From the IMG/VR virus record IMGVR_UViG_3300005471_000012, positions 1 to 64,000 of that record: a DNA stretch of 64,000 nt. The stretch is one strand, 5' to 3'. This DNA is from a virus. Both the position numbers and the translations under genes were made by a program. This document shows positions 1,411 through 47,248 of this stretch, piece after piece. The notes beneath the pieces were generated by a model, which saw nothing but the letters and a program-made list of their open reading frames with translations, had not been told where the DNA came from and ran no database searches. Within the stretch, counting starts at the first letter, position 1, and the number at the start of each line of letters is the position of its first letter.

Positions 1411-2354
1411 ATAACGAAAAGCGGCGCTTTCCCCGCTGGCCGATATTCATAATCGCCGCGCCGGCTGCCATTGCTATCTGGTCGGGCTGGGTCGGCCTAG
1501 GCGCCATGTGCGGGTTCGGCGTCGTTCACCCGCTGCCAGGAATCGTGCCAGGCTTCAAGCTGAACACCGCTATCACTCTGCCAGTTGGCGTTGAGGCATA
1601 CGGCGGCTACGCGCTGGCAGCGTGGCTGCGAGGGAACCTGCCGGCCGAGGTCCGCAAATTCGCTAAGGTGTCGGCGTTCAGCGCGTTTTTCCTTGGCGTT
1701 CTGGGCCAGGTTGCTTATCACCTGCTTGACGCGTCCGGCGTAACCCGCGCGCCGGTACCGGTCATCATCCTGGTGTCGTGCCTGCCGGTCGTGGCCCTGG
1801 CCCTGGGAACCGCGCTGGCGCACCTGCTGCCCGACGGTTCCGCGGTTCCGGGGCGCGCCCCGGTTCCCGGCCCGGAACCAGTTCCCGCCGCAGCGCCGGT
1901 TCCCGCACGCGCTACGGTTCCCGTGCCCGGGCTGGTTCCCGCTCCGGTGCTGGTTCCCGCCGCCGCGCCGGTTCCGCCCGCAGTCAGTTCCGGTGCCGCA
2001 GCGCCAGCAGTTCCCGCCCCGCCCGCCGAGAAAGCCATCACGGGCGGTCCTGGCGCCAGGACCGCCGGCCGCCGGGCGCAGCCGGGCCGGGGACGCGGAA
2101 GCGCCGGCCCGTGGCTGCCCGGCCGGATCGACCGGCGCGGCGTGCACGACCTGAACGCGCTGTTCGCCGCCATCCGGAAGGCCGCCGCGCAGTTTGAGGA
2201 GAAGAACAGCCGGGCGATCACCGGGGAGCTGATGGGAAAGGTGCTCGAATGCCGCAAGGGCGAAGCGATCGACCTCATGAGGCAAGCCGGTGTTCCGCTA
2301 AAGCGCAAGACCAGGGCTGTCGGGCAGGCGCAGGACGAGGCGGCAGGCGGATGA
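1407..2354 (+). CDS. DUF2637-like membrane protein with Pro-Val-rich linker and basic C-terminal domain
   Basis: Residues 1-145 hold several hydrophobic helices, including WPIFIIAAPAAIAIWSGWVG, an amphipathic GVEAYGGYALAAWLRG and PVIILVSCLPVVALALGTAL. This arrangement is typical of DUF2637/SpdA-like proteins of actinobacterial integrative elements and some phages. Residues 150-215 are a low-complexity run of PVP units encoded by repeated GGTTCCCG-type codons. The C-terminal 100 residues are basic and then helical (DLNALFAAIRKAAAQFEEKN) and may bind DNA or a partner. In conjugative elements such genes accompany the FtsK-like transfer protein; one is found about 4 kb downstream here. GTG start overlapping the previous stop. 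Confidence 0.75.
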   Translation: MNNEKRRFPRWPIFIIAAPAAIAIWSGWVGLGAMCGFGVVHPLPGIVPGFKLNTAITLPVGVEAYGGYALAAWLRGNLPAEVRKFAKVSAFSAFFLGVLGQVAYHLLDASGVTRAPVPVIILVSCLPVVALALGTALAHLLPDGSAVPGRAPVPGPEPVPAAAPVPARATVPVPGLVPAPVLVPAAAPVPPAVSSGAAAPAVPAPPAEKAITGGPGARTAGRRAQPGRGRGSAGPWLPGRIDRRGVHDLNALFAAIRKAAAQFEEKNSRAITGELMGKVLECRKGEAIDLMRQAGVPLKRKTRAVGQAQDEAAGG

Positions 2355-2482
2355 CACGCGAAGGGAAACGGGCCCGCAGCGCCGCGGGCACCCTCTCCGG
2401 AGGGCCGTCCCGTGACGGGAGCATGCGCAACGCTTATGCGCGTTGCGCATGCGCGCAACGCGCGCGCGAGGCACAGCCATGA
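2351..2482 (+). CDS. possible small Arg/Cys-containing protein, 43 aa
   Basis: This short frame is translationally coupled at both ends: its ATG overlaps the preceding TGA (ATGA) and its TGA overlaps the next ATG. The product is basic, with RCACAQRAR near its end. It contains the long hairpin at 2421-2452. The coupling argues for translation, but composition alone cannot prove it. Confidence 0.4.
   Translation: MTREGKRARSAAGTLSGGPSRDGSMRNAYARCACAQRAREAQP
2421..2452. repeat. 13-bp perfect inverted repeat (hairpin)
   Basis: GCATGCGCAACGC pairs with GCGTTGCGCATGC across a 6-base loop. No T-run follows, so it could be an attenuator, an operator or an RNA processing signal rather than a simple terminator. 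It lies just before the gene starting at 2479. Confidence 0.7.
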
Positions 2483-2781
2483 TGATACCCGGGCCATTCA
2501 AGGACGCGCTACTGCGCCAGATCAGCCGGCGCGCCGAAATCGGCGGCCTGCAGAAGCAGGAACTCTACCGGCAAGCGCTCAACATCGCCGTCGGCGGCCT
2601 GCAGAAGGAACTTATCGTCGTGGCGAAGCGCGAGCCGCCGGCGAAGTCGCGGGCGGCATACCTGAAGGCGACGAAGTACGTGCAGGAACTGACCGACAAG
2701 GTAGCCGGCGTCAAGTCCGACCCGGGCTCGGTCGGCGACCTGGCTGAGCAGCTGGCCGCAATCGAGGGAGGCGCGGGATGA
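2479..2781 (+). CDS. hypothetical helical protein, 100 aa
   Basis: The double ATG at 2479/2482 is chosen because it overlaps the upstream stop; a longer frame from 2443 would run through the hairpin. The product is largely helical and contains the repeated phrase GGLQK twice about 20 residues apart (IGGLQKQELYRQALNIA, VGGLQKELIVVA). No recognised family. Its stop overlaps the next ATG (ATGA). Confidence 0.6.
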   Translation: MMIPGPFKDALLRQISRRAEIGGLQKQELYRQALNIAVGGLQKELIVVAKREPPAKSRAAYLKATKYVQELTDKVAGVKSDPGSVGDLAEQLAAIEGGAG

Positions 2782-3407
2782 GTGCTGACAACGACTGGGT
2801 CATGCCGGAGTTCGAGCTGCTTGACCCGGAACCGGGAACCGCCCGCGCCGCGCCGGTTCCCGGCATGGTTCCGGCTCCCAGGTGGCAGCCGGTTCCGGGC
2901 CCGCGCCTGGTTCCCGCGTCAGTTCCCGGCTCGGTTCCCGCGCCGGTTCCGGTTCCCGCGCCGGCCCCGGTTCCCGGTTCCGGGCCAGGGCCGGGAACCG
3001 GCAGCGACGTGGTTCCGTATCAGGTTCCCGGCATGCCCGCCGTGCCGGACTTCGCCGACCTCGGGCCCGCGGAAATCGCCCTGGAAACCGTGCGGCACTG
3101 GGTCGGGCAAGGGCGCAAGACCGTACGTGACATGAAAGCCAGCGATAGTAATCCGCTCGGCGGCGCGGTCAAGGGCCGGCCCGGTTCCATCGAAGACCTC
3201 TTCAAGTACGCCGAGTCTGAGGAATGGGTGCCGCCGGCCAGCAACGGAAAGTATCTCGCTGCGGCCGGGAAAGCAGACTGCTACACGATCGGGCTGGCGC
3301 TGAAGATAATCGGCGGTGCCATTTCAGGTGCAGGTGACCGGCCGATGCGGCACTGGCTGCCGATCATCGCCATAGCCATAGCCATTATCTTCATCAAGTT
3401 CCACTGA
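2778..3407 (+). CDS. Pro-Val-rich protein with C-terminal membrane helix, 209 aa
   Basis: The first third is a tandem run of PVPG/PAPVP units made from repeated GGTTCCCG-like DNA, matching the linker in the 1407 gene. A soluble segment follows (about residues 95-165), then GLALKIIGGAISGAG and a C-terminal membrane helix (WLPIIAIAIAIIFI). It may be a tail-anchored partner of the DUF2637-like protein, sharing its PVP region. No catalytic motif is seen. Confidence 0.65.
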   Translation: MSADNDWVMPEFELLDPEPGTARAAPVPGMVPAPRWQPVPGPRLVPASVPGSVPAPVPVPAPAPVPGSGPGPGTGSDVVPYQVPGMPAVPDFADLGPAEIALETVRHWVGQGRKTVRDMKASDSNPLGGAVKGRPGSIEDLFKYAESEEWVPPASNGKYLAAAGKADCYTIGLALKIIGGAISGAGDRPMRHWLPIIAIAIAIIFIKFH

Positions 3408-3422
3408 CCGGAGGAACCCGAA

Positions 3423-4187
3423 ATGCATTTCCTGCTCGCATCAATGCGGAACCCGCTGGACATCGGGGCGATCTTGCTGCTCATCGCCCTGGCGTGCGTA
3501 TGGAAGGATTCCGCTCCGCGGTTCGCGGCATGCGCGGCGCTCGCCGGCGCCGGCATGGCCGCCTGGGAGTTCAAGGTGGCCATCAACCCGTACGCCGGGA
3601 TCCAGGTTCTCGGCGCCGGGGTGCTGCTGATCGTCGCGCTGATCACGTCAATGATCTGGGTTCTCGAGGTGATCCACGGCAAGGACCCGCACCCGTGGCG
3701 GACTCCGGCCGTGTCGGTGATCGCCGGCGCGGCCGACGCGCTGTGCATCGGGCTGCCGCACGTGATTCTCGGGACGCTCGGCGTCGGCGCGTTCGGCATG
3801 CTGTTCCTGCTCGCCGCGATCGTGCTGATGGTGAAGAAGTCCGCTGACCGGCTGGTCGCCGTGCTGGGCCTGGCCGGCGCCGGCATGGTGGCGTGGGCGG
3901 TCGGCGCGATCCTCGTCCCGTATGCCAGGTTCCGGGTCGGCGGCATCAGCGCGCTGCTCGCCGTCGACGCCGTGTTCGCCGTGATCTTGTTCTTCGAGGT
4001 GGCGAAGGGCCGCAGCCCGCACCCGTGGCGGACCCCGGTCACCGCGATGATCCTCGGCGTGGCGATGGCGCTGACGATCGGCGTCGGCGGGCATGCCGCG
4101 AACATCGGCCACCTGAGCAAGCCAGTGGTAACGGGCTTCTACCAGGCTACTCACGCGGGTCACGGCAGCAACAGGCACAAGCACTAG
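3423..4187 (+). CDS. multi-pass membrane protein with internal duplication, 254 aa
   Basis: Preceded by a GGAGG ribosome site. Around seven or eight hydrophobic segments can be counted. The protein is an internal duplication: LAGAGMVAWAVGAILVPYARF in the second half mirrors LAGAGMAAWEFKVAINPYAG in the first, and each half ends with a charged loop (GKDPHPWRTP and GRSPHPWRTP) before another helix. The repeated HPWRTP loop is the best landmark. The family is not recognised. Its place in the FtsK/DUF2637 operon suggests an accessory membrane component of that module. Confidence 0.75.
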   Translation: MHFLLASMRNPLDIGAILLLIALACVWKDSAPRFAACAALAGAGMAAWEFKVAINPYAGIQVLGAGVLLIVALITSMIWVLEVIHGKDPHPWRTPAVSVIAGAADALCIGLPHVILGTLGVGAFGMLFLLAAIVLMVKKSADRLVAVLGLAGAGMVAWAVGAILVPYARFRVGGISALLAVDAVFAVILFFEVAKGRSPHPWRTPVTAMILGVAMALTIGVGGHAANIGHLSKPVVTGFYQATHAGHGSNRHKH

Positions 4188-6320: not shown

Positions 6321-8668
6321 AACCGCCGCCGCCGGGCATGTACCGCCACCCGCGCGGCCCGGACGGCAAGCGGCTGACCCGCCAGCCGGAAGGCCCGCCA
6401 GCGGAAGGCCAGGAGCCGGAGGCAGGCCGCCGGCCGCGCCGCCGGAATGCGCTGTGGCTCGAAACAGGCCCCGGAGCCGGTGACGATGCCGCGGCGGGCA
6501 GTGAGGCGGCTGCCCGCCCGCCGGGGCCGGCCCGGGAAACCGGGACCACATGGGCCGAGCACGGCCGCGTGCTGGCCCCGTTCGCCGCCATCGCGGCCGG
6601 TGACGGGATTGCGGCCGCAGGCCAGTACCTAACCCACGGAGCCGCCGCCCTGTACCTGGCCGGCTCGGCGGTCGCCGGGGCATGGCTGGCCGTGCGTCGG
6701 CACAACAAGCGCCGCAAGTCCGCTGCGGCGTACCGGAAGAAGTCGTACTGGCTGTGGGCAGCCTGGTCGGCATGGCTGGCGCTCGCCAGCCTGGTGACGT
6801 TCTCCGGCTGGCTTGGCCTGGTGCAATGGGCGTACCTTGCCGGCGGGCTGGTGCTGAGCACTACGCCGCTATGGCGGGAGCATCAGCGGCGGAAAGCCCG
6901 CCGCGAGGCGGCCCGGGCCGTCGCCGAGGCCGCCGCGAAACTCGCCGCCGAGGCCGCCGCGAAACCGCCGGCGCTGCCGCCTGCACCAGACCCGCGGCTG
7001 ACCTTGTTCAGGGACAAGTTCTGCCACGGAGACCTGGCGGGCGCTGAACTGGAGAACTTCGCCGGCCTCGACGGCGGCTTCCGCCTCGACGTGCACCTCG
7101 ACGGCCGGTCACGCAAAGGCACCCGCCAGTTCGCCGACGACACCAGCCTGCGCGTGGAGGTCGCCAAGCTGTACGACGTGTCCTACGACCAGGCGCACAT
7201 CGAGTACGTCCCCGGCTACAGCTCGGAGCGGCGGTTCCGGGTGACGGTGATGACCCGCCGCGAGGTGCTCCGCAAGGCGGTCCGCTGGGACGGGAAGTCG
7301 ACCTTCCAGCCGTACACCGGGTCGGTGATCCTCGGCCATTACATGGACACCCGCCCGTACCGCTGGCAGCTGTGGGCCCCCCGTTCGGGCGCCCTCGGCG
7401 GCGCGATAGCCGGCATGCCCGGCCGGGGCAAGACCGGCGTGGCGCACCGGCTGGCCGGCGAGGCCGGCCTGGCGAAGATGTGCCGCGCCTGCGGCCCGGC
7501 GCGAACCTGCCAGGCCTGTGACATGGCGCGCATCGCCGCGATCTGGATGGCGGACCCGCAGATGCACGGGTTCGCGCCCTGGTACGGCAAGGCCGACGTC
7601 ATGGCGTGGGGCCCCGCCGCCACCGTGGAACTGCTGCGCTGGATCAAGGAGGCCAGCAAGTCGCGGTCCGCGGCGAACAGCGAGCACGTGTGGACCGATC
7701 ATCGTGGCCGCACTCACGAGCGCGGCAAGGGGTTCTTCGACCCGTGGCCCGGTCTCCCGCTCATCGTCGCGATCTTCGACGAGTGGGCGAAGCTGGTCGC
7801 CGATCCGGTGCACGGCCCCGAAGCGGTGGCGCTCATGGAGGAACTGCCGCTGCAGGTCCGCAAGGCCGGCCTGTGCCTGGTCCCCGTCTTCCACGCCGCC
7901 GACGTGGACGAGATCGGCGGCCGGATCATCCGCGACGCGCTGGCGAGCTGGAACGCGGTGGCCCTGCATACCGACAAGCTGTCCACCAACATGCTCAACC
8001 TGATCGGCGATCCGACCGAGCTCCCGCAGGACCTGTGGGGTGTCGCCTACGCCAAGTCAGGCCTCGAGGATCGTTCCGGCGTGCAGATGCGGACGGATGA
8101 GTTTCCCGAGATCGCCGAGCCCGGCGACGGCGAAGCCGACGTGCATGACATCGCGGCGATCATCGCTGCGGACCCGGTCGAATACGACGACGCGGTGCTG
8201 CGGGTCCTGCGCCACGAACTATTCGGCTGGACCGGCCCCGGCCATGTGATCACCGATGACAACATCGTGCCGCCCGGCGGGCTAGCGCAGCCGGCGCAGG
8301 GCGGCGGCACGGCCACGCTGATCCGGCCCGCCGCCGGGCCAGAGTCCTCGCCGCTGGCTGACTTGGCGCGGGGCATCAGGGAAGGCCTGATCCAGCCGAA
8401 CCCGGACGACCCGGATGGCGCGGCGATGCTGCTGCAGGCGCTCGAGCTGGAAGAAGCCCGGCAGGGCGCCGCGGCGTCCCTGGACACGGCCGGGCGGATA
8501 CGGCGGGCCGTCGCCGCGGCCCCCGGCCGGGACCTGTACGGCGTCATGAAAGACACCGGGCTGGACGCGTTCACCGCGATGCGCGAACTCGGCCTGCTCG
8601 TCGAATGCGGGCAGGTCACGCTCGACGCCGCCGGGACATACCGGGCGGCAGCAGGAAAGGACACCTGA
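6317..8668 (+). CDS. FtsK/SpoIIIE-type DNA translocase (TraB-like)
   Basis: ATG 6317 overlaps the upstream stop; longer in-frame readings are rejected. Order: Pro/Arg-rich N-terminus, hydrophobic helices around residues 80-185 (IAAAGQYLTHGAAALYLAG, WLWAAWSAWLALASLVTF, LVQWAYLAGGLVL), a linker, then the motor. The motor shows Walker A (GMPGRGKTG, about residue 366) and Walker B (VAIFDEWAKL, about residue 486). A Cys cluster (CRACGPARTCQAC) just after Walker A may bind zinc, which is unusual. The C-terminus is helical and could be a winged-helix region. The family pumps double-stranded DNA; in actinobacterial conjugative elements a single such protein moves DNA between mycelial cells. Whether it serves transfer or an intracellular step here is inference. 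Confidence 0.88.
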   Translation: MKPPPPGMYRHPRGPDGKRLTRQPEGPPAEGQEPEAGRRPRRRNALWLETGPGAGDDAAAGSEAAARPPGPARETGTTWAEHGRVLAPFAAIAAGDGIAAAGQYLTHGAAALYLAGSAVAGAWLAVRRHNKRRKSAAAYRKKSYWLWAAWSAWLALASLVTFSGWLGLVQWAYLAGGLVLSTTPLWREHQRRKARREAARAVAEAAAKLAAEAAAKPPALPPAPDPRLTLFRDKFCHGDLAGAELENFAGLDGGFRLDVHLDGRSRKGTRQFADDTSLRVEVAKLYDVSYDQAHIEYVPGYSSERRFRVTVMTRREVLRKAVRWDGKSTFQPYTGSVILGHYMDTRPYRWQLWAPRSGALGGAIAGMPGRGKTGVAHRLAGEAGLAKMCRACGPARTCQACDMARIAAIWMADPQMHGFAPWYGKADVMAWGPAATVELLRWIKEASKSRSAANSEHVWTDHRGRTHERGKGFFDPWPGLPLIVAIFDEWAKLVADPVHGPEAVALMEELPLQVRKAGLCLVPVFHAADVDEIGGRIIRDALASWNAVALHTDKLSTNMLNLIGDPTELPQDLWGVAYAKSGLEDRSGVQMRTDEFPEIAEPGDGEADVHDIAAIIAADPVEYDDAVLRVLRHELFGWTGPGHVITDDNIVPPGGLAQPAQGGGTATLIRPAAGPESSPLADLARGIREGLIQPNPDDPDGAAMLLQALELEEARQGAAASLDTAGRIRRAVAAAPGRDLYGVMKDTGLDAFTAMRELGLLVECGQVTLDAAGTYRAAAGKDT

Positions 8669-16583: not shown

Positions 16584-17285
16584 ATGCCGCAGGTCGCCGT
16601 CAAGCTAGTCGACATCATGAGCTCGTCGCGCTGGGAGTTCCGCGACACCGGCCCGACATGGCAGCACCCGGTCTACGGCGGCGGCCGGGCGAAATGGGAT
16701 CCGTTCCCGTGCTACCGGCACGAGATGGACGCCGCGATAGCGGCAGCCGAGCATGTGGCCCGGGTGTGCCCGCCGCCCTGGCCGGTCACCATATACCTGG
16801 CCGACCTTGAGGAAACGTCCCGCACCAACGCCTACTCCTACCTGCACGAGACCGGGCACTACGAGGACGGCACGTGGGTTGACGACGAGCCGTCGGGGCT
16901 GATCATGCTGGCCGGGAAGAGAATCCCGCCGCACCCGGCGGTCACCGCCTACCTGATCGGCCACGAATACGGCCACCAGGCCGAATGGATGATCAACTTC
17001 GCGGCCGGGCGGGAACGCCTGCATTCCCCGCTGGCAGCCCGCGACTACATCAAGGTTCGCGGCCTGCCCGACGAGGCGGACCATCATGGCAGCGGCGGCG
17101 CGTGGCACGATTCCGTGCACGAGATCCTGGCCTGCGACTTCCGCATCCTGGCGTGCGGTCTCGAACCCGGCTACTGGCCCCATCCAGGCGTCCCGCGTCC
17201 CGAGGACATCCCGGGCCTGCCCGCCTGGTGGGAAGAAACCCTCGCCGCGATCGAAGCCGCGGGCACCCGGCCAGCCGCGGCCTGA
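16584..17285 (+). CDS. HExxH zinc metallopeptidase-like protein, 233 aa
   Basis: LIGHEYGHQAEW (about residues 124-135) contains the zincin signature HEYGH, whose two His and one Glu bind and activate zinc-bound water. VHEILACDF about 50 residues later offers an acidic third ligand. The N-terminal half ends in a substrate-edge type strand (SGLIMLAGKRIPP). There is no signal peptide. Phage zincins may cleave host regulators or act in the virion; neighbours are tail-type genes. The specific target is unknown. Confidence 0.75.
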   Translation: MPQVAVKLVDIMSSSRWEFRDTGPTWQHPVYGGGRAKWDPFPCYRHEMDAAIAAAEHVARVCPPPWPVTIYLADLEETSRTNAYSYLHETGHYEDGTWVDDEPSGLIMLAGKRIPPHPAVTAYLIGHEYGHQAEWMINFAAGRERLHSPLAARDYIKVRGLPDEADHHGSGGAWHDSVHEILACDFRILACGLEPGYWPHPGVPRPEDIPGLPAWWEETLAAIEAAGTRPAAA

Positions 17286-17320: not shown

Positions 17321-17629
17321 ATGGGTGCTCGCGGATGCAAGCACAAGCCAGCGCGGATCGTCACCCGTTACTCGGTGCTGGGCGACGTCGAGGTGACGGG
17401 ACCGGATTACCGGAACTGGTGGCGCACAGACGGCGTCTGCGAATACGGCAACTGCACCGAGCTCCTCTGCCCGGTCTGCGGATGCGGCCAGGGCGGCTGG
17501 GGCCCGATGGAATGCCCGTGCGAAGACTGGATCGGATATCACGACATGCGCCGTGAACCCGTGCCAGCGGCGGTCAAACCATCCGCTGCCCGCCCCGGGC
17601 GCCGCATTCACCGACGCCGCATCCGCTAA
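17321..17629 (+). CDS. Cys-rich zinc-binding protein, 102 aa
   Basis: Starts at ATG 17321 inside a longer frame. It has GCKHKP, then CEYGNCTELLCPVCGCGQGG and MECPCEDW, enough ligands for two zinc sites, and a basic tail (RRIHRRRIR) suited to nucleic-acid contact. No family is recognised. A gap of about 110 bases follows, containing a palindrome. Confidence 0.65.
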   Translation: MGARGCKHKPARIVTRYSVLGDVEVTGPDYRNWWRTDGVCEYGNCTELLCPVCGCGQGGWGPMECPCEDWIGYHDMRREPVPAAVKPSAARPGRRIHRRRIR

Positions 17630-17743: not shown

Positions 17744-18478
17744 ATGCCACGGCTCAGCCAGGTTGTCGCCGCCGAAGCGGGCACGAAAACCCGCACATAC
17801 GCGGAACTGACCGAATATTACAAGAAGCTCCAGAAGCCGGCGCTCGTGTCCGGTATCAGCCGCACCTACCAGCCTATCGCCGAAGGCGGCGAGCCGCTGC
17901 CCGCCGAATCGACCCGCGTCCAGATCATCGCCGAGGATGTCATCCGCGCGATGGTCACGTCGATGACGAAACTGTTCGACGTGACCGCAACCAAGGACTG
18001 GGCGAACTGCCGTGCCAGGGCACCCGTCCTGGTTGACGGCGAAGTGCTGCTGGAAGGCGTGCCGGTCACCTACCTGCTGTTCCTCGCCAAGCAGCTCAGG
18101 GACCTGCGCGCCGTCATCGTCAAGCTGCCGGTGCACGACCCGGCCGACCGCTGGGAATACGACCCGTCGCAGCGGTGCTACCGCACCGAGCCCCCGGTGG
18201 TCACCTACCGGTCGAAGAAAGTGCCCCGCAACCACGTCAAAGCCGAGGCCACGGACAAGCATCCCGCGCAGGTCGACGTGTACTTCGAAGACGTCAACGT
18301 CGGCGCGTGGACTGCCGTCAAATTCACGGGCGGCATCCCGGCGCAGCGGCAGGCCGAACTGCTCGGCCGGGTGGACACGCTGATCGAGGCGGTCGGCGCG
18401 GCCCGCGAGGAAGCCAACGCGATGCAGGCCGAAGACGTGCACATCGGAACCGACATCCTCGGCTGGCTGTTCCGCTGA
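17744..18478 (+). CDS. conserved phage protein (DUF7873-like), 244 aa
   Basis: Ribosome site GGGGGA before ATG 17744. The start MPRLSQVVAAEAGTKTRTYA and the segments TATKDWANCRARAPVLVDG, GVPVTYLLFLAKQL and EDVHIGTDILGWLFR match a protein widespread in actinobacteriophages and tentatively called DUF7873. No function is known to me. Being widely conserved and close to the Tad2-like gene, it may be part of the phage accessory set. Confidence 0.75.
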   Translation: MPRLSQVVAAEAGTKTRTYAELTEYYKKLQKPALVSGISRTYQPIAEGGEPLPAESTRVQIIAEDVIRAMVTSMTKLFDVTATKDWANCRARAPVLVDGEVLLEGVPVTYLLFLAKQLRDLRAVIVKLPVHDPADRWEYDPSQRCYRTEPPVVTYRSKKVPRNHVKAEATDKHPAQVDVYFEDVNVGAWTAVKFTGGIPAQRQAELLGRVDTLIEAVGAAREEANAMQAEDVHIGTDILGWLFR

Positions 18479-18504
18479 CCATCACCGCGGGTAAGGACAC
18501 GGGC

Positions 18505-18720
18505 ATGAACTTCGGTCACGCGCTGGTCGCGCTGCGAACTGGCAAACGGGTCAGCCGCGCCAACTGGAACGGCCCCGGCCAGTGGATCGCATTGCAAGTA
18601 CCCGACGCGGAATCGAAGATGACACTGCCCTACATCTACATCAAAACAGTGCAAGGTGACCTTGTGCCCTGGCTGGGCAGCCAGACGGACCTGCTGGCAG
18701 ACGACTGGGAAGTCCGCTAG
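18505..18720 (+). CDS. DUF2829 / Tad2-type anti-Thoeris protein, 71 aa
   Basis: The start MNFGHALVALRTGKRVSRAN, the WNGPGQWIAL strand and the C-terminal VPWLGSQTDLLADDWEV are the hallmarks of DUF2829. This family includes Tad2 (Thoeris anti-defence 2), a protein that traps the cyclic ADP-ribose-type signal made by ThsB and so stops ThsA activation. At 71 residues it is a compact member. An AAGGA ribosome site precedes the ATG. It sits between a conserved phage gene and the tRNA-like region. Family call strong; anti-Thoeris activity for this copy is inferred. Confidence 0.88.
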   Translation: MNFGHALVALRTGKRVSRANWNGPGQWIALQVPDAESKMTLPYIYIKTVQGDLVPWLGSQTDLLADDWEVR

Positions 18721-18785
18721 GATCACCGGCGAGCGTAAACTGAATCTGAACCTGAGACTCGGTCAATCCGGTATAGGAACATGGT

Positions 18786-18810
18786 GGAGGTTCGACCCCT
18801 CCCCGGGGCA
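18786..18810 (+). tRNA. tRNA 3' portion A: T-arm plus acceptor 3' strand
   Basis: GGAGG-TTCGACC-CCTCC is a perfect T-arm, followed by acceptor strand CCGGGGC and discriminator A, without encoded CCA. No matching 5' strand lies upstream. The exact complement (GCCCCGG, 18838-18844) lies 28 bases downstream, which gives a permuted order. Confidence 0.45.
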
Positions 18811-18837
18811 CGACGGCGGGAACGCCGCAAACCACCG

Positions 18838-18876
18838 GCCCCGGTAGCCCAATTGGAAGAGGCATCCCATTCCGGG
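18838..18876 (+). tRNA. tRNA 5' half A: acceptor, D-arm, anticodon loop (CCG)
   Basis: GCCCCGG, then TA, a canonical D-arm (GCCCAATTGGAAGAGGC), A, stem strand TCCCA and loop TTCCGGG with T33 and anticodon CCG (Arg). Its 5' acceptor strand pairs perfectly with 18803-18809 upstream. The expected 3' stem strand TGGGA does not follow. Confidence 0.45.
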
Positions 18877-18948
18877 CGAAACTTAGGCTCTCGCTCCAGA
18901 CTCGGTCCTGAAGCTCACCGCCAGATCCACTGGCCGCAGGCAAGTCCA

Positions 18949-18983
18949 TGGAGAGGTTGCCGGTTCGAGTCCGGCCCGGGGAG
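18949..18983 (+). tRNA. tRNA 3' portion B: stem strand, variable loop, T-arm, acceptor
   Basis: TGGAG, variable loop AGGTT, perfect T-arm GCCGG-TTCGAGT-CCGGC, acceptor strand CCGGGGA and G. The strand CCGGGGA pairs perfectly with TCCCCGG at 19007-19013 downstream, and with one mismatch to 18838-18844 upstream. Confidence 0.45.
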
Positions 18984-19006
18984 CGCAGCACCAGCATCAC
19001 CCACAG

Positions 19007-19045
19007 TCCCCGGTAGCTCAACAGGCAGAGCAATCCGGCTAAGAA
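19007..19045 (+). tRNA. tRNA 5' half B: acceptor, D-arm, anticodon loop (AAG)
   Basis: TCCCCGG, TA, canonical D-arm (GCTCAACAGGCAGAGC), AA, stem strand TCCGG and loop CTAAGAA with T33 and anticodon AAG (Leu). The expected CCGGA does not follow. A second anticodon-like arm (GCGGT-CTTAAAC-GCCGC, 19053-19069) lies just downstream. Confidence 0.45.
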
Positions 19046-19139
19046 ATGACTTGCGGTCTTAAACGCCGCTGGCAGCACGTTTCGTGTCTTTGAACAACAC
19101 GACACGGGCCCCTTGCACGGGGTTCATATCCCTTTACCG

Positions 19140-19522: not shown

Positions 19523-19993
19523 CTAATCCCCGCTCAGGAACCATTGCTGGTCCGGCCAGTGCACGGCTCCGAACCGGCGGCAGGGCCGCATCCGCATCGG
19601 CCCGCCGATCGTGCCGGGGATGGTCAGGCACCGCCCGGCCTGGCTGCGCAGTGCCCGGCTGGCGTAGCCGCGGCGCCGGATCCGGTCCCACCGCTGCCGT
19701 GCGCCGCCCCGGCAGGCCGTCGTCCGCGGGCCGCTGCGGCTCGCGGTCAGGCACAGCCCTGACGCCGACCTGATCGCGTGGCCTGCGATCGTCCACAGTT
19801 CGGCCTGGCTGGCCGGCTGGCCCGGCTGCGGGCACTGCGAGACCACCAGGCCGCCGCGAACGGGCGCTGAGGCGCAGATGCCGACGTCCGTGGACTGGAT
19901 CAGGTGCGGCCGGGGCGCAGCGGCTGCGATGCCCGGCGCTACGGCAACGGCTACGCTAGCGGCGGCGGCAGGCAGCCAGGCGGCATGTTTCAT
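19523..19993 (-). CDS. secreted ricin-type (beta-trefoil) lectin-like protein, 156 aa
   Basis: The N-terminus MKHAAWLPAAAASVAVAVAP ending in AAAA is a classic signal peptide. The mature part shows beta-trefoil repeats of the ricin B type: IRSASGLCLTAS, then CRGGARQRWDRI with its QxW element, RCLTIPGTIG, and a final DQQWFLSGD. The family binds galactose-type glycans. It lies alone on the minus strand among rightward genes, which suggests an independently acquired cargo gene. Export from the infected host and surface binding are inferred. Confidence 0.7.
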   Translation of the reverse strand: MKHAAWLPAAAASVAVAVAPGIAAAAPRPHLIQSTDVGICASAPVRGGLVVSQCPQPGQPASQAELWTIAGHAIRSASGLCLTASRSGPRTTACRGGARQRWDRIRRRGYASRALRSQAGRCLTIPGTIGGPMRMRPCRRFGAVHWPDQQWFLSGD

Positions 19994-23995: not shown

Positions 23996-24916
23996 TCAGG
24001 GCCGGGCCGCCTCGATGAAGGTCAGTAGCGGGTCAAGATCGTGTGCCCAGATGAGGCTCAGGCCATTATCCTGCGCGTACTTGAGGTTGGCGAGAGCAAA
24101 CACTCCGGAGAGTACCGCAGCCGGTACGACATTTGCCGAGCCGAACTCCCGGCGCCACGAAACGGCCTTGACGGCCGCATCGTTGTTGATGCGCTTATAG
24201 CTATTGGTAGTGCTATTGGACACTTTGCACTCGATCGGCATGAGTCGACCGTCCTGTAGGCGCACGGAGATGTCTGCCTTCCGAGTTCCAACGTCACATT
24301 CCCCGCAGAACTCGCCCGGGCCCGGCGCCATGCTGATATTAGTGATCGGCCGGCGCGGCACCTCGGTGAAGCTGCATTGTTCAACGAGGTAAGTCTTGAC
24401 CTGCTGCTCCTGGCTCGTCTTGCCTTCCTGGCGCCGCCACGTCTCGACCTTCCGGAACGCCAGCATTGCCGCAGTGGATACCGCGGCTGTGCCGCGCTCC
24501 GCCTCAGTCGCCTCCCGGTGCTCGCTGAGCCAGGGGAACCGCTCCCGGTCAAGCCCGAGCAGAATCGTGTCCATCAGTCGGCCGGCACGCGCCGGGTCGG
24601 CCCGAATTAGCGTTGGGGCAAGCGTGACCCCGGCGACTGTTTCAAGGTCATCCGTGCTGATCGGCGGCGAGGCGATGTACCTGGCTGCGTCTACTAGCTG
24701 GTCGTCAGCGAGGAGTTCGACAGCCATCTCGCGGACCCGGAGCAGGTCGCCGGTCATCTCAAGGACTGCGTCGATGGCGACCCTGGCAGCCTGGAAATAG
24801 GTCAGATACCGTTCGAGGGGTTCGCCGACGCGCTCATGCCTGAACGCGGCGATGCTCGCCTGACGCGCATCCTCCAGGTGCTCAACGTCCCACTCGGGCG
24901 GGACTGCCTGCGTCAT
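23996..24916 (-). CDS. XamI-family type II restriction endonuclease, 306 aa
   Basis: The whole length matches the RE_XamI family: FRHERVGEPLERYLTYFQAA, ARYIASPPISTDDLETVAG, RERFPWLSEHREATEAERGT and the C-terminal VKAVSWRREFG...VVPAAVLSGVFALANL. The catalytic region (KADISVRLQDGRLMPIECKV) is a PD-(D/E)xK arrangement with E-x-K. XamI cuts GTCGAC. The start overlaps the methyltransferase gene by 35 bases, typical of restriction-modification pairs and ensuring the methylase is made first. GTCGAC sites remain in this window, so methylation by the neighbour would be needed. Confidence 0.9.
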   Translation of the reverse strand: MTQAVPPEWDVEHLEDARQASIAAFRHERVGEPLERYLTYFQAARVAIDAVLEMTGDLLRVREMAVELLADDQLVDAARYIASPPISTDDLETVAGVTLAPTLIRADPARAGRLMDTILLGLDRERFPWLSEHREATEAERGTAAVSTAAMLAFRKVETWRRQEGKTSQEQQVKTYLVEQCSFTEVPRRPITNISMAPGPGEFCGECDVGTRKADISVRLQDGRLMPIECKVSNSTTNSYKRINNDAAVKAVSWRREFGSANVVPAAVLSGVFALANLKYAQDNGLSLIWAHDLDPLLTFIEAARP

Positions 24917-26510
24917 CGCGCAGAAGTACCTCCGGGCTCGGGACCGGCAGCCGCTCCATCTCGCGCGGCTCGAACTTGGTCAGGCCGCCAGCATAGGTGC
25001 GGCCCTGCCCGGCGCGGACGGAGACGCGCAAATACGCCAAGAGATCGTCTAGTACATCGTCGGCCAGGGGCTGCCGCGGGTAAAGGCCGTGGGCGATATT
25101 GATATGCCGGGCATTGACCACGTTCCGCACGAATGCTGGCGGCCGACGTGCCATGTACGTTGCCAGCACAGGAGCTGGACGCCTTAGCCCCACCCTCCAC
25201 CATGGCCGGCGGGTTCGGGCAATATACCCGTCCGCAGCGCCGGCCCTCCGCGCCTGCGCCAGGAATCTCTCGACTAGTTTCCGCTCCCCGGCCAGAAGCT
25301 CGTCAAGATCCTCTGGCAGGTCGATGACCAGCCGCAATGCCGTCGCGTCCGCAAGAGCAGGCCCCGCATTGAACAATTCAAGGGACCGCGTCACTGACGG
25401 GAACAGGACGCTGACGGGCAGGTCCGTGGCGCCAGCCCGCGTGATCCAAACCGAGTTCGCGCCAGTGACCTGGCCACGGTGAACGCGGCATAGCTCACCG
25501 AGTTCCACGTAGCCTTCGGCGAGCTTCGGCGTTCCTCTTACCAGAGGCCCCCAGCGGCCCGCTTCGCTGAGCGTTGCCCTGGAAACCCTCCGGCCGCCTG
25601 ACAATGCCCCCAGGTCCTGGACCCGCCTGACTTGGCGTAGCCGCATCGAGGTCGGCTGGCGCCCCAGGTGGAAGCATGACACTGCGGTCGTTGTCACAGC
25701 GTCCGCAAATGCCGCGGTTGTGGGGTCTAGGACGTGAACCGAATGGCCGCCCAGGCCATCCAGTAGCAACGCTCGTACTAGCCGGCCATAGTTCACGTCC
25801 ATCCATTCAGCTGACGTGACGAACGTCCCGAAGTCACCAGGCTTGCCGTGGCTTGCCGTGGCGAGGAAGAAGTGAACGTGCAGGCCAGCCAGCTGGCTGG
25901 CGGCAAGGCCGTGCTGGCGGGCCGTGTCTACTAGCCATTTCTTCCACTCGCCGGCGATCTGGTGATGGCGTACGTACGGCGGGTTGCCCACGTAGAGGGT
26001 CCGGCCGCATATCGGATCCGGACTCAATGCCCGGTAGTCGGTTACGGTCACGAGTGATCGGTCACCTGCTCCGGTGGCCGCCAGGTTGGCCCTAGCCGTG
26101 ATAGTCGCTACCGGATCAATGTCGACGCCGACCAGGTTAGCCCGGGGCCAGCGCCGGCCGGCCGCCATGAGGAATCGGCCTGAGCCAACGCCCGGGTCGA
26201 TCACTCGTGCCGGCTCCTCCTGGGCCTCGGCCCACTGAATCATGCTCGCGACGATGAGGGGCGGCGTGTAGGTCTGACCGAGCGGTCGGCGTTCCTCTGC
26301 GCCGCGGATCGCACAGAAGGCATCGCCGAGCGGGTCCTGGCCCGCGCGTATGCGTTCGCGCAGCTCAGCGATGTTGAGCGCGTACTTAGGCACGTCGCTC
26401 AGAAGCCGGCGCTCGTCGCCTGACCAGCCTGGCACCTCTCCTGCGCCGAGTTGCAGGGCCGCGCTGAGCAGCGTCGGCAAGTCGTTGAGCGAAGTCGTCG
26501 CGCCGCTCAC
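24882..26510 (-). CDS. N6-adenine DNA methyltransferase, XamI-type
   Basis: The N-terminal catalytic domain contains the SAM-binding motif ARVIDPGVGSGRFLMAAGRR (motif I) and YVGNPPYVRHHQ (motif IV, NPPY), the hallmark of adenine-N6 methylases. LGQTYTPPLIVASMI is the usual entry motif. A long C-terminal part acts as target recognition (IARTRRPWWRVGLRRPAPVL, VNARHINIAHGLYP). GTG 26510 follows the preceding gene by overlap; longer frames are rejected. It protects GTCGAC against the downstream endonuclease. Confidence 0.9.
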   Translation of the reverse strand: MSGATTSLNDLPTLLSAALQLGAGEVPGWSGDERRLLSDVPKYALNIAELRERIRAGQDPLGDAFCAIRGAEERRPLGQTYTPPLIVASMIQWAEAQEEPARVIDPGVGSGRFLMAAGRRWPRANLVGVDIDPVATITARANLAATGAGDRSLVTVTDYRALSPDPICGRTLYVGNPPYVRHHQIAGEWKKWLVDTARQHGLAASQLAGLHVHFFLATASHGKPGDFGTFVTSAEWMDVNYGRLVRALLLDGLGGHSVHVLDPTTAAFADAVTTTAVSCFHLGRQPTSMRLRQVRRVQDLGALSGGRRVSRATLSEAGRWGPLVRGTPKLAEGYVELGELCRVHRGQVTGANSVWITRAGATDLPVSVLFPSVTRSLELFNAGPALADATALRLVIDLPEDLDELLAGERKLVERFLAQARRAGAADGYIARTRRPWWRVGLRRPAPVLATYMARRPPAFVRNVVNARHINIAHGLYPRQPLADDVLDDLLAYLRVSVRAGQGRTYAGGLTKFEPREMERLPVPSPEVLLRDDAGSPARVGR

Positions 26511-27271
26511 GGCGCCTCCGCTGCAGGTTCGGCCTGGTCGTGAGGCTTCCGCCCGGGCGGCAGGTCCACGCTGACGTACTCGACCGGCTCCCGGAGGCTG
26601 CGGTAGATGCGGCCGCAGCGCAGCTGAACGTACCCGGGAGCGCCGAGCCGGTTGAGTTTCACCCAGGCAACCGACTTCAGCTTCCCGGCCGCCGCCGCAA
26701 TGTCGTCGAGCGCCACGAGGCCCTCCGGCGCCGGGCGCCAGTCCGCCAGCCCGAGCTCGGCCAGGTAGGCGTCCTTCTCGCCGCGCAGGTAGGCGACGCC
26801 GTCGGAGAACCACCAGATGCGGGTCGTCCCGTTGCTGACAAGGGCCGGAAGCGGCGCCCCGGCGCTCCGCATCCGGTGCCAGGTCGCCGCCTTCTTCAGC
26901 CCGGCCGCGTGAGCTAGCTCGCCGATGCTGGCCAGCCGCGTCGATGCCGCGCCGATCGCGGCCGTCACCTCGGCGAGGCACGCCTCGGCGTCGGGCCGCC
27001 AGCGCGGAATCCCGGCAGCCCATTCGCCGGCCTCGAGATCGAAGACCCAGACATGCCAGCCGTCCCGATCGCCGCCGTACCGCGCGGGCCCGAACGCGAT
27101 CCGCGCCTGGCGGGCTGCCCAGATCCAGCAGTCCGCTCCTCCAGGGCCCGGCTCCCGGGTCACGTGCCGGATGTCAAGGCCGGCGGCACCGATCGAGCCA
27201 AGGCCGATCGCCCCGCTGCCGGGGCTGGCCAGCTTGCTGCGCCGTGTCATCGTCTCGCCGCCTCCCGTCAT
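26507..27271 (-). CDS. helix-turn-helix protein associated with the XamI-type system, 254 aa
   Basis: ATG 27271 follows AAGGAGGG. N-terminal segment PGGADCWIWAARQARIAFGP is followed by two helix-turn-helix-like segments: IGELAHAAGLKKAATWHRMR and ALDDIAAAAGKLKSVAWVKL. Its stop overlaps the methylase start (GTGA). Position and fold suggest the operon's control protein, or an adaptor helping the methylase. Longer in-frame starts would overrun the promoter at 27350-27378 and are rejected. Confidence 0.75.
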   Translation of the reverse strand: MTGGGETMTRRSKLASPGSGAIGLGSIGAAGLDIRHVTREPGPGGADCWIWAARQARIAFGPARYGGDRDGWHVWVFDLEAGEWAAGIPRWRPDAEACLAEVTAAIGAASTRLASIGELAHAAGLKKAATWHRMRSAGAPLPALVSNGTTRIWWFSDGVAYLRGEKDAYLAELGLADWRPAPEGLVALDDIAAAAGKLKSVAWVKLNRLGAPGYVQLRCGRIYRSLREPVEYVSVDLPPGRKPHDQAEPAAEAP

Positions 27272-27401: not shown

Positions 27402-27935
27402 ATGCCGCGCAGCCGCACCGTCGCCGATCGTGAACGCGATGCCAAAGCCCTGTCCCTGCGCGCCCGCGGGTACACGCACCGGCAGATTTCCGCGCAGCTC
27501 GGCTGGAAATCACCCGCGTCCGCCGTCGGCGCCTGCACCCGCGCCATGCAGGACATGTACCGGGAGGATATAGACAAATGGCGCCAGATTGAGCTGGACA
27601 AGCTCGATGACCTGACCCGCGAGGCCTGGGACGCGATGCAGGAAGCCCACTACCTCGTCTCCCAGGGCAAGGTGGTCAAGGACGACGACGGCACGATGCT
27701 CGTCAACGCCGTCGACAAAGTCAGCCAGCTCGGCACGCTTCTGCTGAAGATCAGCGAGTCCCGCCGAAAGCTGCTCGGCATCGACGCCCCGCCGCAGAAG
27801 GCGCCGACGCCCGATAATCTTGATGCCGAGATCGAGACGCTGGTCAAGCAGCTTTCGGGTCTGGGCGACGTGCCGAAGCAGGTGGCGGACGGCACGGTGG
27901 CCGCTATCGAGAGCGCGGCCCCGCCGGGGGCCTGA
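27402..27935 (+). CDS. terminase small subunit, 177 aa
   Basis: Strong GAGGAGG ribosome site. The N-terminus contains a helix-turn-helix (LRARGYTHRQISAQLGWKSP) typical of small terminases, which recognise the packaging site. It is followed by a coiled-coil region (RQIELDKLDDLTREAWDAMQ; KISESRRKLLGI) that would form the ring. It lies immediately before the large subunit gene, the canonical order. Confidence 0.85.
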   Translation: MPRSRTVADRERDAKALSLRARGYTHRQISAQLGWKSPASAVGACTRAMQDMYREDIDKWRQIELDKLDDLTREAWDAMQEAHYLVSQGKVVKDDDGTMLVNAVDKVSQLGTLLLKISESRRKLLGIDAPPQKAPTPDNLDAEIETLVKQLSGLGDVPKQVADGTVAAIESAAPPGA

Positions 27936-27942
27936 GGCCGCA

Positions 27943-30450
27943 GTGCCGCAGCCATCGTGGGATCAGCTTCCGCCTCATGCGAAGCAGCAGCTCCGCGACC
28001 GGCTCGCGGCTGAGCTGGCGGTGCGGCGCAGTACCACCCCCCGGCCGTGGCGGAAGCTGGCGCGGCCGAAGCAGCTGCCGCCGGACGACCCGCGGCACTG
28101 CCTGCCGGATGCGAACGGCTACAAATGCGGGTGCGACAAGCCCGATATGACCTTCAATGTCTGGCTCGTGATGGCCGGGCGCGGGCTGGGCAAAACGTGG
28201 CAAGGCGCCCAGTGGCTAACGGAACAGGCAATTCGGTATCCAGGGACAGAGTGGGCCGTGGTGGCCCCAACCTTCAGGGACGTGCGCAAAACGGCTATAG
28301 AGGGCACAACGGGCATTCTGGCAGCACTCCAGCCGGGCGAGCTGGCCAGCTATCACCGCAACGAGCTGATGATCACCCTCGCGGGAGGGTCCCACCTGTT
28401 CGGCTACTCGGCCGATAATCCGGAGCGCCTGCGGGGCGCCAACCTGTCCGGTGCATGGTGCGTCGCCCGGGGGGAACCCGTACTCACATCTCGCGGGCCC
28501 GTGCCGATTGAGGACGTGCGACCCGGCATGAGGGTGTGGACGCGGCAGGGATGGCGCCGGGTGCTCGCGCAGCGGCTGATGGCCCGCGCCGCGCCCGTTG
28601 TGCGCGTCGTTACAGACGGAGGGGCGAGCGTCCGGGTCACGGCAGGCCACCGGATTTGGACGCAACACGCCGGGTGGATGGAAGCACGAACGCTGGCCCC
28701 TGGCGATATTCTTAATGTATGGAATTCGCCTACGGGCCACCGGCCTGGATCGAATGGGAGGGCGTCCGCTTCTATCGCCGCAGCAAGAGCGGCCATTACG
28801 CGGATCGCACCGGCTGCCTGCTTCACGTCGCCGTCTGGGAGCGCGCCCATAAGCGACGGATACCTGACGGCCACGCTGTGCATCACAAGGACGAAGATAA
28901 GGTCAACAACGGCGCCGGCAACCTCGAACTGCTCACCAAGGCCGAGCACACCAGGCACCATAACCTCACCGAGCCCCGCGGCATTGCCGTCCTCGCCACA
29001 GCCGAGCGGTCCGGCATATCGCGCAACTCATGGGCCAACCGGCCGGAGCGCGATTTCGCCTGTAACGTCTGCGGCACCTCGTTCAAATCCAAGGGCCAGC
29101 GGGCCATGTACTGCTCGCCCAACTGCCGCGCCGCCGCCTTCCGCGCTGATCACCGCAAACGCGGACAGGACGCGCTGGCCGACCGGCAATGCGAATGGTG
29201 CGGCGACAGCTTCACCCCGCCAGACCGGCGCACCGTCTATTGCGGCCCCGCCTGCCGCCAGAGGGCAGGAGACGGCGCGAAGCGCGCCCGCAACCGCGCA
29301 CGGCTGGGAATTCCGGCCTGCGCAGCCTGCGGCAACCTGTTCACCCCCAAGGACGGTCGCCAGCGATTCTGCTCCGGTCTCTGCCGTCAGCGGCATGCGC
29401 GTCGCGAGGCTCGAGCCCGCTGGGCGGGCTGACGTATACGACCTCCAGGTCGAGGGCGTTCACGAGTTCGTCGTCGGCCGCATCCTGGTCCATAACTGCG
29501 ATGAGCTAGGTTCGTGGCGGTACCCGCAGACCTGGTACGAGGGCCTCATGCCCGCCTTGCGGGTAGGCGAGTTCCCCCGGGTGGTCGTCACGACGACCCC
29601 CCGACTCGTCCCGCTGATCAGGGACCTGGTCGGCCGCGATGACGGCTCTGTGCACATTACCCGCGGGTCGACGTGGGAGAACGCCGACAACCTGTCTGCG
29701 GCGGCGCTCGCGGAACTCCGGCACCGCTACGGCGGCACGAGGCTGGGCCGGCAAGAGCTCGAAGGCGAGCTCCTCGAGGACGTTGATGGCGCACTGTGGG
29801 CCCGCGATGACATTGACGCGGCCCGCGTGAAGCTCGGCGAGGTGCCGCAGCTGCACCGCGTCGTCGTCGCGATCGACCCGGCCACCACGTCGGGCGAGGA
29901 TTCCGACCAGACGGGCATCGTGGTCGTCGGGGAGGGCCCGGGCGGGCACGGCTACGTGCTGGCCGACCTGACGTTCCGGGGCACCCCGGATGCGACGATG
30001 CGCAAGGCGGTCGGCGCCTACCATCAGTACCAGGCCGACTCGGTCGTGGCAGAGGTCAACAACGGCGGGGATTACATCCGGTCCCTGCTGCGGACCGTTG
30101 ACCCGCAGATCCCGTACCGGTCGGTGCGGGCGACCCGCGGCAAGCGGACCCGGGCCGAGCCGGTGTCTGCGCTGTACGAACAGCGCAGAATGCACCATGT
30201 CGGGGTGTTCCCGGAGCTAGAGGACGAGATGTGCTCGTGGACTCCGGATAGCCTCCTGGGCAGCCCGGACCGCATGGACGCACTTGTCTGGGGGTGTACC
30301 GAGCTGCGCGGCCTGTCGGTCGGCTCGTGGCGTGAAGCATACGGCGTGATCATTTGCGCTACCTGCCAGGAGCCATACATGCCGGAAGGCAAGACGGCCT
30401 GCCCGTGGTGCGGCGCCGACGTTCCGGGTGAGGCCGAGGTGCCAGCGTGA
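27943..30450 (+). CDS. terminase large subunit with intein at Walker B
   Basis: GTG 27943 is the start; the frame is open to 30450. Walker A is AGRGLGKTW (residues 78-86). The N-terminal ATPase stops at SGAW, an intein of 346 residues begins at Cys173 and ends in HN, then the extein resumes CDELGSW, restoring a Walker B-type acidic pair. The C-terminal RuvC-like nuclease shows VVAIDPATTSGEDSDQ, AEVNNGGDY and a later MDALVWG. A zinc ribbon (CATCQEPYMPEGKTACPWCG) closes the protein. Spliced TerL would be about 489 residues. TerL translocates and cuts DNA during head filling. Confidence 0.9.
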   Translation: MPQPSWDQLPPHAKQQLRDRLAAELAVRRSTTPRPWRKLARPKQLPPDDPRHCLPDANGYKCGCDKPDMTFNVWLVMAGRGLGKTWQGAQWLTEQAIRYPGTEWAVVAPTFRDVRKTAIEGTTGILAALQPGELASYHRNELMITLAGGSHLFGYSADNPERLRGANLSGAWCVARGEPVLTSRGPVPIEDVRPGMRVWTRQGWRRVLAQRLMARAAPVVRVVTDGGASVRVTAGHRIWTQHAGWMEARTLAPGDILNVWNSPTGHRPGSNGRASASIAAARAAITRIAPAACFTSPSGSAPISDGYLTATLCITRTKIRSTTAPATSNCSPRPSTPGTITSPSPAALPSSPQPSGPAYRATHGPTGRSAISPVTSAAPRSNPRASGPCTARPTAAPPPSALITANADRTRWPTGNANGAATASPRQTGAPSIAAPPAARGQETARSAPATAHGWEFRPAQPAATCSPPRTVASDSAPVSAVSGMRVARLEPAGRADVYDLQVEGVHEFVVGRILVHNCDELGSWRYPQTWYEGLMPALRVGEFPRVVVTTTPRLVPLIRDLVGRDDGSVHITRGSTWENADNLSAAALAELRHRYGGTRLGRQELEGELLEDVDGALWARDDIDAARVKLGEVPQLHRVVVAIDPATTSGEDSDQTGIVVVGEGPGGHGYVLADLTFRGTPDATMRKAVGAYHQYQADSVVAEVNNGGDYIRSLLRTVDPQIPYRSVRATRGKRTRAEPVSALYEQRRMHHVGVFPELEDEMCSWTPDSLLGSPDRMDALVWGCTELRGLSVGSWREAYGVIICATCQEPYMPEGKTACPWCGADVPGEAEVPA
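28459..29496 (+). other. intein within TerL
   Basis: Block A (CVARGEPVLTSRGPVPIEDV) and block B (VRVTAGHRIWT) lie at the N-side. The C-side blocks are ADVYDLQVEGVHEFVVGRIL and the terminal VHN before extein Cys. All three catalytic groups needed for splicing are present. The middle section, in the same frame, is Ser/Thr/Pro/Ala-rich low-complexity sequence because the DNA there encodes the HNH enzyme in another frame. Confidence 0.9.
28719..29432 (+). CDS. HNH homing endonuclease encoded out of frame inside the intein, 237 aa
   Basis: Read in a frame offset from TerL, the DNA encodes a recognisable HNH enzyme: HVAVWERAHKRRIPDGHAVH and HKDEDKVNNGAGNLELL form the catalytic site at residues 36-80. 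Three Cys-type zinc fingers follow (CNVCGTSF...YCSPNC; CEWCGDSF...YCGPAC; CAACGNLF...FCSGLC) that probably read the DNA target. The ORF begins where the intein splicing domain ends and stops just before the intein C-block. Weak ribosome site. Homing endonucleases cut intein-less alleles to spread the intein. Confidence 0.85.
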   Translation: MEFAYGPPAWIEWEGVRFYRRSKSGHYADRTGCLLHVAVWERAHKRRIPDGHAVHHKDEDKVNNGAGNLELLTKAEHTRHHNLTEPRGIAVLATAERSGISRNSWANRPERDFACNVCGTSFKSKGQRAMYCSPNCRAAAFRADHRKRGQDALADRQCEWCGDSFTPPDRRTVYCGPACRQRAGDGAKRARNRARLGIPACAACGNLFTPKDGRQRFCSGLCRQRHARREARARWAG

Positions 30451-46861: not shown

Positions 46862-46948
46862 TTTCGTCCGGCCTCCGGTCGTTTGCCCTGCCTTCGTCAG
46901 TGCCAGGCGGGCAGTCCTGGCAGACACCCGCGCGGCGGGTGTTTCGGC

Positions 46949-47248
46949 TCAGCCCTCGGCCGGGAAGCAGTCCGCATAGGTGAATTCGGAAGCCTCGGAC
47001 TTCCACGGAATGTCTATCGTGTCGTCGCCGGACTCGATTGAGGCTTCGAAGTCGGTCACGTTTGAGAAGTCGCCGGCGTGCGTGTCAAGCCACGCCTGCA
47101 CCGATTCGCGCGTGATCTTGCCATCGCCGTGCTGGCGCACGTTGTCAACGTCATGCCCGCTTAGCTCGTACGTCTGGGCAGCGGTAACGCTCGCCATCCA
47201 TATGGTCCCGATCACCCGGATAACCGACTTGCGGACCGTGTAGCGCAT
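46949..47248 (-). CDS. hypothetical protein, 99 aa
   Basis: ATG 47248. Starts with a basic strand (RYTVRKSVIRVIGTIWMASV) and continues with acidic segments (TDFEASIESGDDTIDIPWKS). Probably a small alpha/beta fold. No family. Confidence 0.6.
   Translation of the reverse strand: MRYTVRKSVIRVIGTIWMASVTAAQTYELSGHDVDNVRQHGDGKITRESVQAWLDTHAGDFSNVTDFEASIESGDDTIDIPWKSEASEFTYADCFPAEG

Follow-up and report, generated by a model that had tools for sequence, protein, structure and literature searches.

The Tad2 protein of SPO1 (gp34.65; PDB entries 8sme, 8smf, and 8smg) sequesters gcADPR and does not bind 3'3'-cGAMP (PMC11722364). Its gcADPR pocket is formed by two protomers, with the b1-b2 loop, the b3-b4 loop, and strand b4 contributed by one and the b1-b2 loop, the b4-a3 loop, and helix a3 contributed by the other; the dimer contact has been assigned partly to helix a2 (PMC12043709). 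The cyclic dinucleotide site of Tad2 proteins lies in an insertion after strand 2 (PMC12043709), and this insertion is shorter in SPO1 Tad2 than in HgmTad2. Other solved members are HgmTad2/AcrIIA7 and SptTad2 (8kbi to 8kbm and 8wjd) and ModTad2 of a Myroides odoratus prophage, in complex with His-ADPR (9eib). The Pfam family, PF11195, is named the "Thoeris anti-defense 2-like domain" (Tad2-like) and was formerly DUF2829. A second point of comparison is provided by the bacterial Y RNAs (YrlA; RF02553), which have a permuted tRNA-like order: T arm, 3' acceptor strand, linker, 5' acceptor strand, and D arm. Here we describe a 64,000-nucleotide stretch of viral DNA (the window, part of the 91,148-base record IMGVR_UViG_3300005471_000012) in which a tad2-like gene lies between a DUF7873 gene and a pair of Y RNA-like modules.

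A compact Tad2-like protein and its relatives

The tad2-like gene occupies positions 18505 to 18720 (+ strand) of the window, extends from ATG to TAG, and encodes 71 amino acids. Its start codon lies 26 nt beyond the stop codon of the DUF7873 gene, and a putative Shine-Dalgarno-like sequence, AAGGA (18493 to 18497, +), lies 7 nt 5' of its ATG. The protein matched PF11195 with a score of 89.3 bits (cutoff, 25; E value, 2.3e-25), residues 1 to 70 being aligned to profile positions 1 to 72 of 73, and this was the sole PF11195 match in the virus record. Comparison with six homologues showed many more differences at third codon positions (30 to 40) than at first or second positions (10 to 20), and purely synonymous changes were present in 18 to 25 codons. 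For the homologue from phage MalagasyRose, the differences at positions 1, 2, and 3 numbered 15, 18, and 40, with 25 synonymous codon changes. The gene is under purifying selection and is neither a chance ORF nor a relic.

An AlphaFold2 model of the monomer, for which 50 compact relatives were aligned, had a pLDDT of 95.0 and a pTM of 0.81. All 24 Foldseek matches with E values of ≤0.001 were Tad2/AcrIIA7 chains, and phmmer retrieved all solved Tad2 chains. VIA-align superposed the model on SPO1 Tad2 (8sme_B) with a Z score of 13.2 at 1.3 Å over all 71 residues; the two proteins are 39% identical and have in common the R/W/N/G residues and the W..SQTD...DW pattern, but the stretch from strand 2 to strand 3 is approximately 13 residues shorter in the window protein. 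ModTad2 with His-ADPR (Z, 12.9; 1.8 Å; 41% identity) differs in having a longer middle segment. The HgmTad2/AcrIIA7 and SptTad2 structures (Z, 11.9 to 12.7, with AcrIIA7/HgmTad2 at 12.7) have a middle segment that is 25 to 32 residues longer (the reported cyclic dinucleotide-binding insertion) and one additional residue before the Trp. In the model, strands 2 and 3 are not joined by a helix; given that helix a2 is assigned part of the SPO1 dimer contact, oligomerization, which for a Tad2 sponge would be into a homotetramer, may differ in the window protein. A sequence-only reading of this DNA had described a Tad2-type gene, a compact copy of DUF2829 with all recognizable segments, and the profile match, the predicted fold, the pocket residues, and the short middle segment (for the last two, see below) agree with that description. 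The gene is truly of the Tad2 family, though nothing out of the ordinary within it; this assignment is well supported by homology, and the sponge function is putative.

The compactness of the protein is best expressed as the spacing between W21 and the PW that precedes SQTD, which is 33 residues in the window protein. Of the 80 best viral relatives, 64 had this spacing, more than had any other, whereas spacings of 39 to 53 predominated in relatives from cellular genomes. The compact proteins have a common segment, LQxPDxxSKMTLPYIY, of which SKMTLPY is the near-invariant hallmark. Searching the viral_contigs collection with the single 71-residue sequence yielded no match; an alignment query yielded hundreds, and relatives were encoded in at least 586 viral stretches. 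In a tree of 157 rows and 72 columns, which is weakly resolved and from which SPO1 Tad2 was left out, the window protein fell in a group of 114 rows (SH-aLRT, 92), and HgmTad2, SptTad2, and ModTad2 formed a separate group of 18 rows (SH-aLRT, 94). The window protein belongs to a large, uncharacterized compact branch without the insertion that every solved Tad2 protein has, and no member of this branch was found among the solved Tad2 structures. The nearest named relatives are the compact DUF2829 proteins of Mycobacterium phages MalagasyRose and Curiosium (67% and 66% identity), which are of equal length and carry SKMTLPY but are encoded in a different phage backbone with different neighbors.

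Some compact Tad2 domains were fused to other parts (L009, 719 to 1561; L062, 4899 to 5219; L088, 4770 to 5219), the partners including a gene annotated as a nucleotide kinase (archaeal virus vir335) and an N-terminal GGYxVxYEDGYxSxSP domain. In Aeromonas phage Ahp1 (L007), a compact Tad2 gene (1983 to 2219) adjoins a nicotinamide phosphoribosyltransferase gene (2334 to 3911), which suggests paired handling of NAD-based defense.

Host, Thoeris, and the likely ligand

The virus is probably an actinophage, as the sequence-only reading had assumed. The evidence is strong but indirect: the DUF7873 protein and DNA had their best matches in Gordonia and Arthrobacter phages, the closest named Tad2 matches were those of Mycobacterium phages, and the GC content of the window was 69%. 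The host signal from terminase and portal matches was mixed. That reading had also taken the gene to point to Thoeris in the host, an expectation that the genome surveys did not bear out. SIR2-type (STALD) ThsA was found in 0 of 296 genomes from the class of Mycolicibacterium sphagni. The STALD query was functional, giving 3 matches among 36 genomes carrying a Tad2 relative and none among 14 control genomes; the 3 of 36 has no matched base rate and is uninformative on co-occurrence. Macro-type ThsA was present in 5 and ThsB_TIR in 22 of the 296 actinomycete genomes, and the two lay within 1 kb of each other on one strand in three genomes (G192, G209, and G257). In addition, Tad2 relatives are spread over phages of many phyla, and the gene is missing from a syntenic sister contig of the window. 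If the host is an actinomycete, there is no obvious target for a gcADPR sponge, because SIR2-type ThsA was absent from all 296 genomes.

The elements that form the SPO1 pocket correspond to approximately residues 19 to 26, 48 to 52, 53 to 55, 56 to 59, and 60 to 64 of the window model, an assignment that follows the elements as described in the review (PMC12043709) and not measured atomic contacts. Eleven residues were invariant over a diverse set of relatives (R18, W21, N22, G23, W56, S59, Q60, T61, D62, D67, and W68), and the invariant residues within the pocket elements were W21, N22, G23, P55, W56, S59, Q60, T61, and D62. Loss of the ligand-binding residues on structural modeling had been named as an observation that would speak against a Tad2 function; R18, W21, N22, G23, W56, S59, Q60, T61, and D62 are all kept. 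SQTD is found in SPO1 Tad2, HgmTad2, SptTad2, and the window protein, and the corresponding residues in the His-ADPR-binding ModTad2 are SVSD. Because SQTD is kept as in SPO1 Tad2 and HgmTad2, both of which bind gcADPR, and is not the SVSD of ModTad2, cyclic ADP-ribose isomers, gcADPR in particular, are the first guess for the ligand. The window protein lacks the variable segment between strands 2 and 3 in which cyclic dinucleotides are reported to bind (spacing, 33 versus mostly 39 to 53 in relatives from cellular genomes), and without it, binding of cyclic dinucleotides at this place is unlikely.

On the basis of these sequence and model comparisons, the window protein is probably a minimal Tad2-like sponge for nucleotide signals, directed at ADP-ribose-derived messengers, with gcADPR as the first candidate. 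The gene would be translated together with DUF7873, and its product would assemble into an oligomer. Upon infection, a TIR protein of the host would make a second messenger derived from ADP-ribose; the oligomer would bind it, and with the messenger sequestered, the effector would stay off.

A sponge of the same kind could instead be directed at a signal other than gcADPR, such as His-ADPR (macro-type, type II Thoeris), N7-cADPR (TIR-caspase), or an unknown nucleotide. We regard this as rather unlikely, but several observations are in its favor: the macro type was the only ThsA type, of those tested, found in actinomycetes, with ThsB_TIR close by in three of the five genomes; a family member, ModTad2, binds His-ADPR; and the compact branch is set apart by SKMTLPY, a near-invariant segment of its own. 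There is room for a different ligand, since the compact branch splits from the HgmTad2/SptTad2/ModTad2 branch (92% support over few columns, with SPO1 Tad2 unplaced) and has no solved member. Against it, the window protein keeps SQTD where ModTad2 has SVSD, and the actinomycete host is itself only probable. The result is a puzzle: a gcADPR-type SQTD signature is carried by a probable actinophage, but the ThsA seen in actinomycetes belongs to the macro (His-ADPR) type. These two lines pull in opposite ways, which makes ligand specificity the key question.

The gcADPR-first sponge was also weighed against functions away from nucleotide signaling. The best unrelated fold by VIA-align was the neck protein of phage 812 (Z, 6.0), and there was a weak match to phrog_643, "transcriptional regulator" (E value, 0.0025), as might be seen for a structural or regulatory phage protein with the same small fold and no part in defense. 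Such a role is improbable, as Tad2 structures fit far better (Z, 12 to 13) and the gene has a scattered, accessory distribution that leaves the sister contig without it. An anti-CRISPR action is more improbable still: AcrIIA7 is a PF11195 protein and the HgmTad2 PDB entries bear its name, but AcrIIA7/HgmTad2 was solved with 1',2'-cADPR and cGG (8kbk), which points to nucleotide binding, and no link to Cas9 was seen.

DUF7873 genes are linked to permuted tRNA-like RNA modules

The gene directly upstream of tad2 (17744 to 18478, +) encodes a 244-residue DUF7873 protein (PF25283, by profile) with no clear fold match in the PDB; no Foldseek match had an E value of ≤0.001, and the VIA-align rows reached at most a Z score of 6.8 with an rmsd near 14 Å, so that fold matches for DUF7873 were rejected. 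Further upstream are genes for a Cys/His-rich protein of 102 residues (17321 to 17629, +) and for a 233-residue protein with a HEYGH (HExxH) metallopeptidase motif and no Pfam match (16584 to 17285, +). The sister contig (L093; 159,823 bases) has the counterparts of the genes at 10919, 11981, 16584, 17321, and 17744 in the same order, with 65% identity for the Cys/His-rich protein and 50% for the putative metallopeptidase, and a Y RNA-like match directly 3' of DUF7873. PF11195 had no match anywhere in its 159,823 bases. In the window, 307 nt separate the DUF7873 stop codon from the first RNA module; subtraction of the 216-nt tad2 gene leaves 91 nt, which falls within the 63 to 183 nt seen in the other two-module loci. 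Because the syntenic contig lacks the gene, tad2 looks like optional cargo between the conserved DUF7873 gene and its Y RNA-like pair. The suggestion that the neighbors at 17744 and 17321 might also be anti-defense genes found no support: the former is DUF7873, which is tied to Y RNA-like modules and not to defense genes, and the latter encodes the Cys-rich protein.

Elsewhere in the window are a XamI-type endonuclease (PF09572, 132 bits) adjoining an Eco57I/N6-type methylase, together a restriction-modification pair (23996 to 27023, −), and a terminase large subunit interrupted by an intein (Hint/intein domains between Terminase_6N and Terminase_6C; 27820 to 30450, +). A type II hammerhead ribozyme (46882 to 46949, −) scored 51 bits (gathering score, 37). 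A 156-residue, probably secreted protein (19523 to 19993, −) has a ricin-type lectin domain that barely exceeds the cutoff (29.8 versus 29 bits).

Module A spans 18754 to 18895 (+; core, 18786 to 18863) and matched YrlA at 22.6 bits, and its acceptor strands, CCGGGGC and GCCCCGG, form 7 of 7 pairs. Module B spans 18931 to 19062 (+; core, 18959 to 19031) and matched YrlA at 40.6 bits (E value, 2.5e-7), with 7 of 7 pairs between CCGGGGA and TCCCCGG. Both scores are below the Rfam YrlA gathering score of 69. Rfam YrlA matches were also present 3' of DUF7873 in L093, L095, L096, and L097 and in phages Phendrix, Racecar, Fryberger, KpLz-2_45, and RHph_TM39. Our own structure scan required a T arm, a 3' acceptor strand, a linker, a pairing 5' acceptor strand, and a D arm. 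At 17 of 19 DUF7873 loci, the 700 nt downstream held one or two modules on the strand of the gene, for a total of 27 modules. Control phage and genome loci gave 51 matches in 2.75 million strand-bases, corresponding to approximately 0.25 expected versus 27 observed; because related DUF7873 loci are not independent, a Poisson probability for this contrast is not to be taken literally. When all seven acceptor pairs were required, 26 of the 27 modules passed, with 3 matches left in the control; shuffled downstream regions gave a scan match in 19 of 3,800 cases. The 22 distinct acceptor pairs showed compensatory changes at all seven positions.

The linkage was also seen in the reciprocal direction. 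The motif of module A occurred at 32 places in viral_contigs; the five places with twin modules were all on DUF7873 contigs, two of them new (L219 and L221), and six other motif contigs that were tested had neither twin modules nor DUF7873. The DUF7873-module loci are those of the window, L093 to L097, L099, L100, L197 to L201, L203 to L206, L219, and L221, and the phages concerned are those of actinobacteria, cyanobacteria, Klebsiella, Rhizobium, and Vibrio. Of the two exceptions, L098 has YrlA-like matches (6977 to 7089, −) on the strand opposite DUF7873, and Microcoleus phage L202 has, in place of a module, a HEARO RNA (129 bits; 3450 to 3659, +) in the gap after DUF7873.

Ordinary tRNAs were rejected as an identity for the modules: ARAGORN found none in the window or in the modules, and permuted pairing was better than normal-order pairing between neighboring modules in eight of nine two-module loci. 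A permuted tmRNA may be present in L203 and L204, which had partial beta_tmRNA matches, but would leave the tandem pairs unexplained. Separately, Gordonia phage Phendrix (L197, 572 to 1100) has a tmRNA match of 89 bits that is unannotated in its record.

The modules have the permuted order of the bacterial Y RNAs but differ in that those of the window are subthreshold in Rfam, the family is usually tandem, and the linked gene is DUF7873 rather than one for Ro60/TROVE. PF05731 (TROVE/Ro60) had no match in the 91-kb record, which is possibly a fragment. In one phage with a compact Tad2 (L183; G012:C1:47723-47905), a gene for a TROVE/Ro60-like protein is also present, close to YrlA matches. In our judgment, the chances are about even that DUF7873 and its one or, usually, two tandem RNAs constitute an undescribed phage ribonucleoprotein system in which DUF7873 binds or acts on the RNAs in the way that Ro60 does on Y RNA. 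Such a system might, for example, guard, edit, or mimic tRNAs during infection. A literature search found no mention of DUF7873, and a published link may exist.

The compact Tad2 branch, abundant and without the cyclic dinucleotide segment, offers a clean test of what the Tad2 core alone binds. The apparent DUF7873-RNA cassette is more novel than the tad2 gene here, and the tie between DUF7873 and a structured RNA gives a concrete starting point for work on a functionally uncharacterized family of phage proteins.
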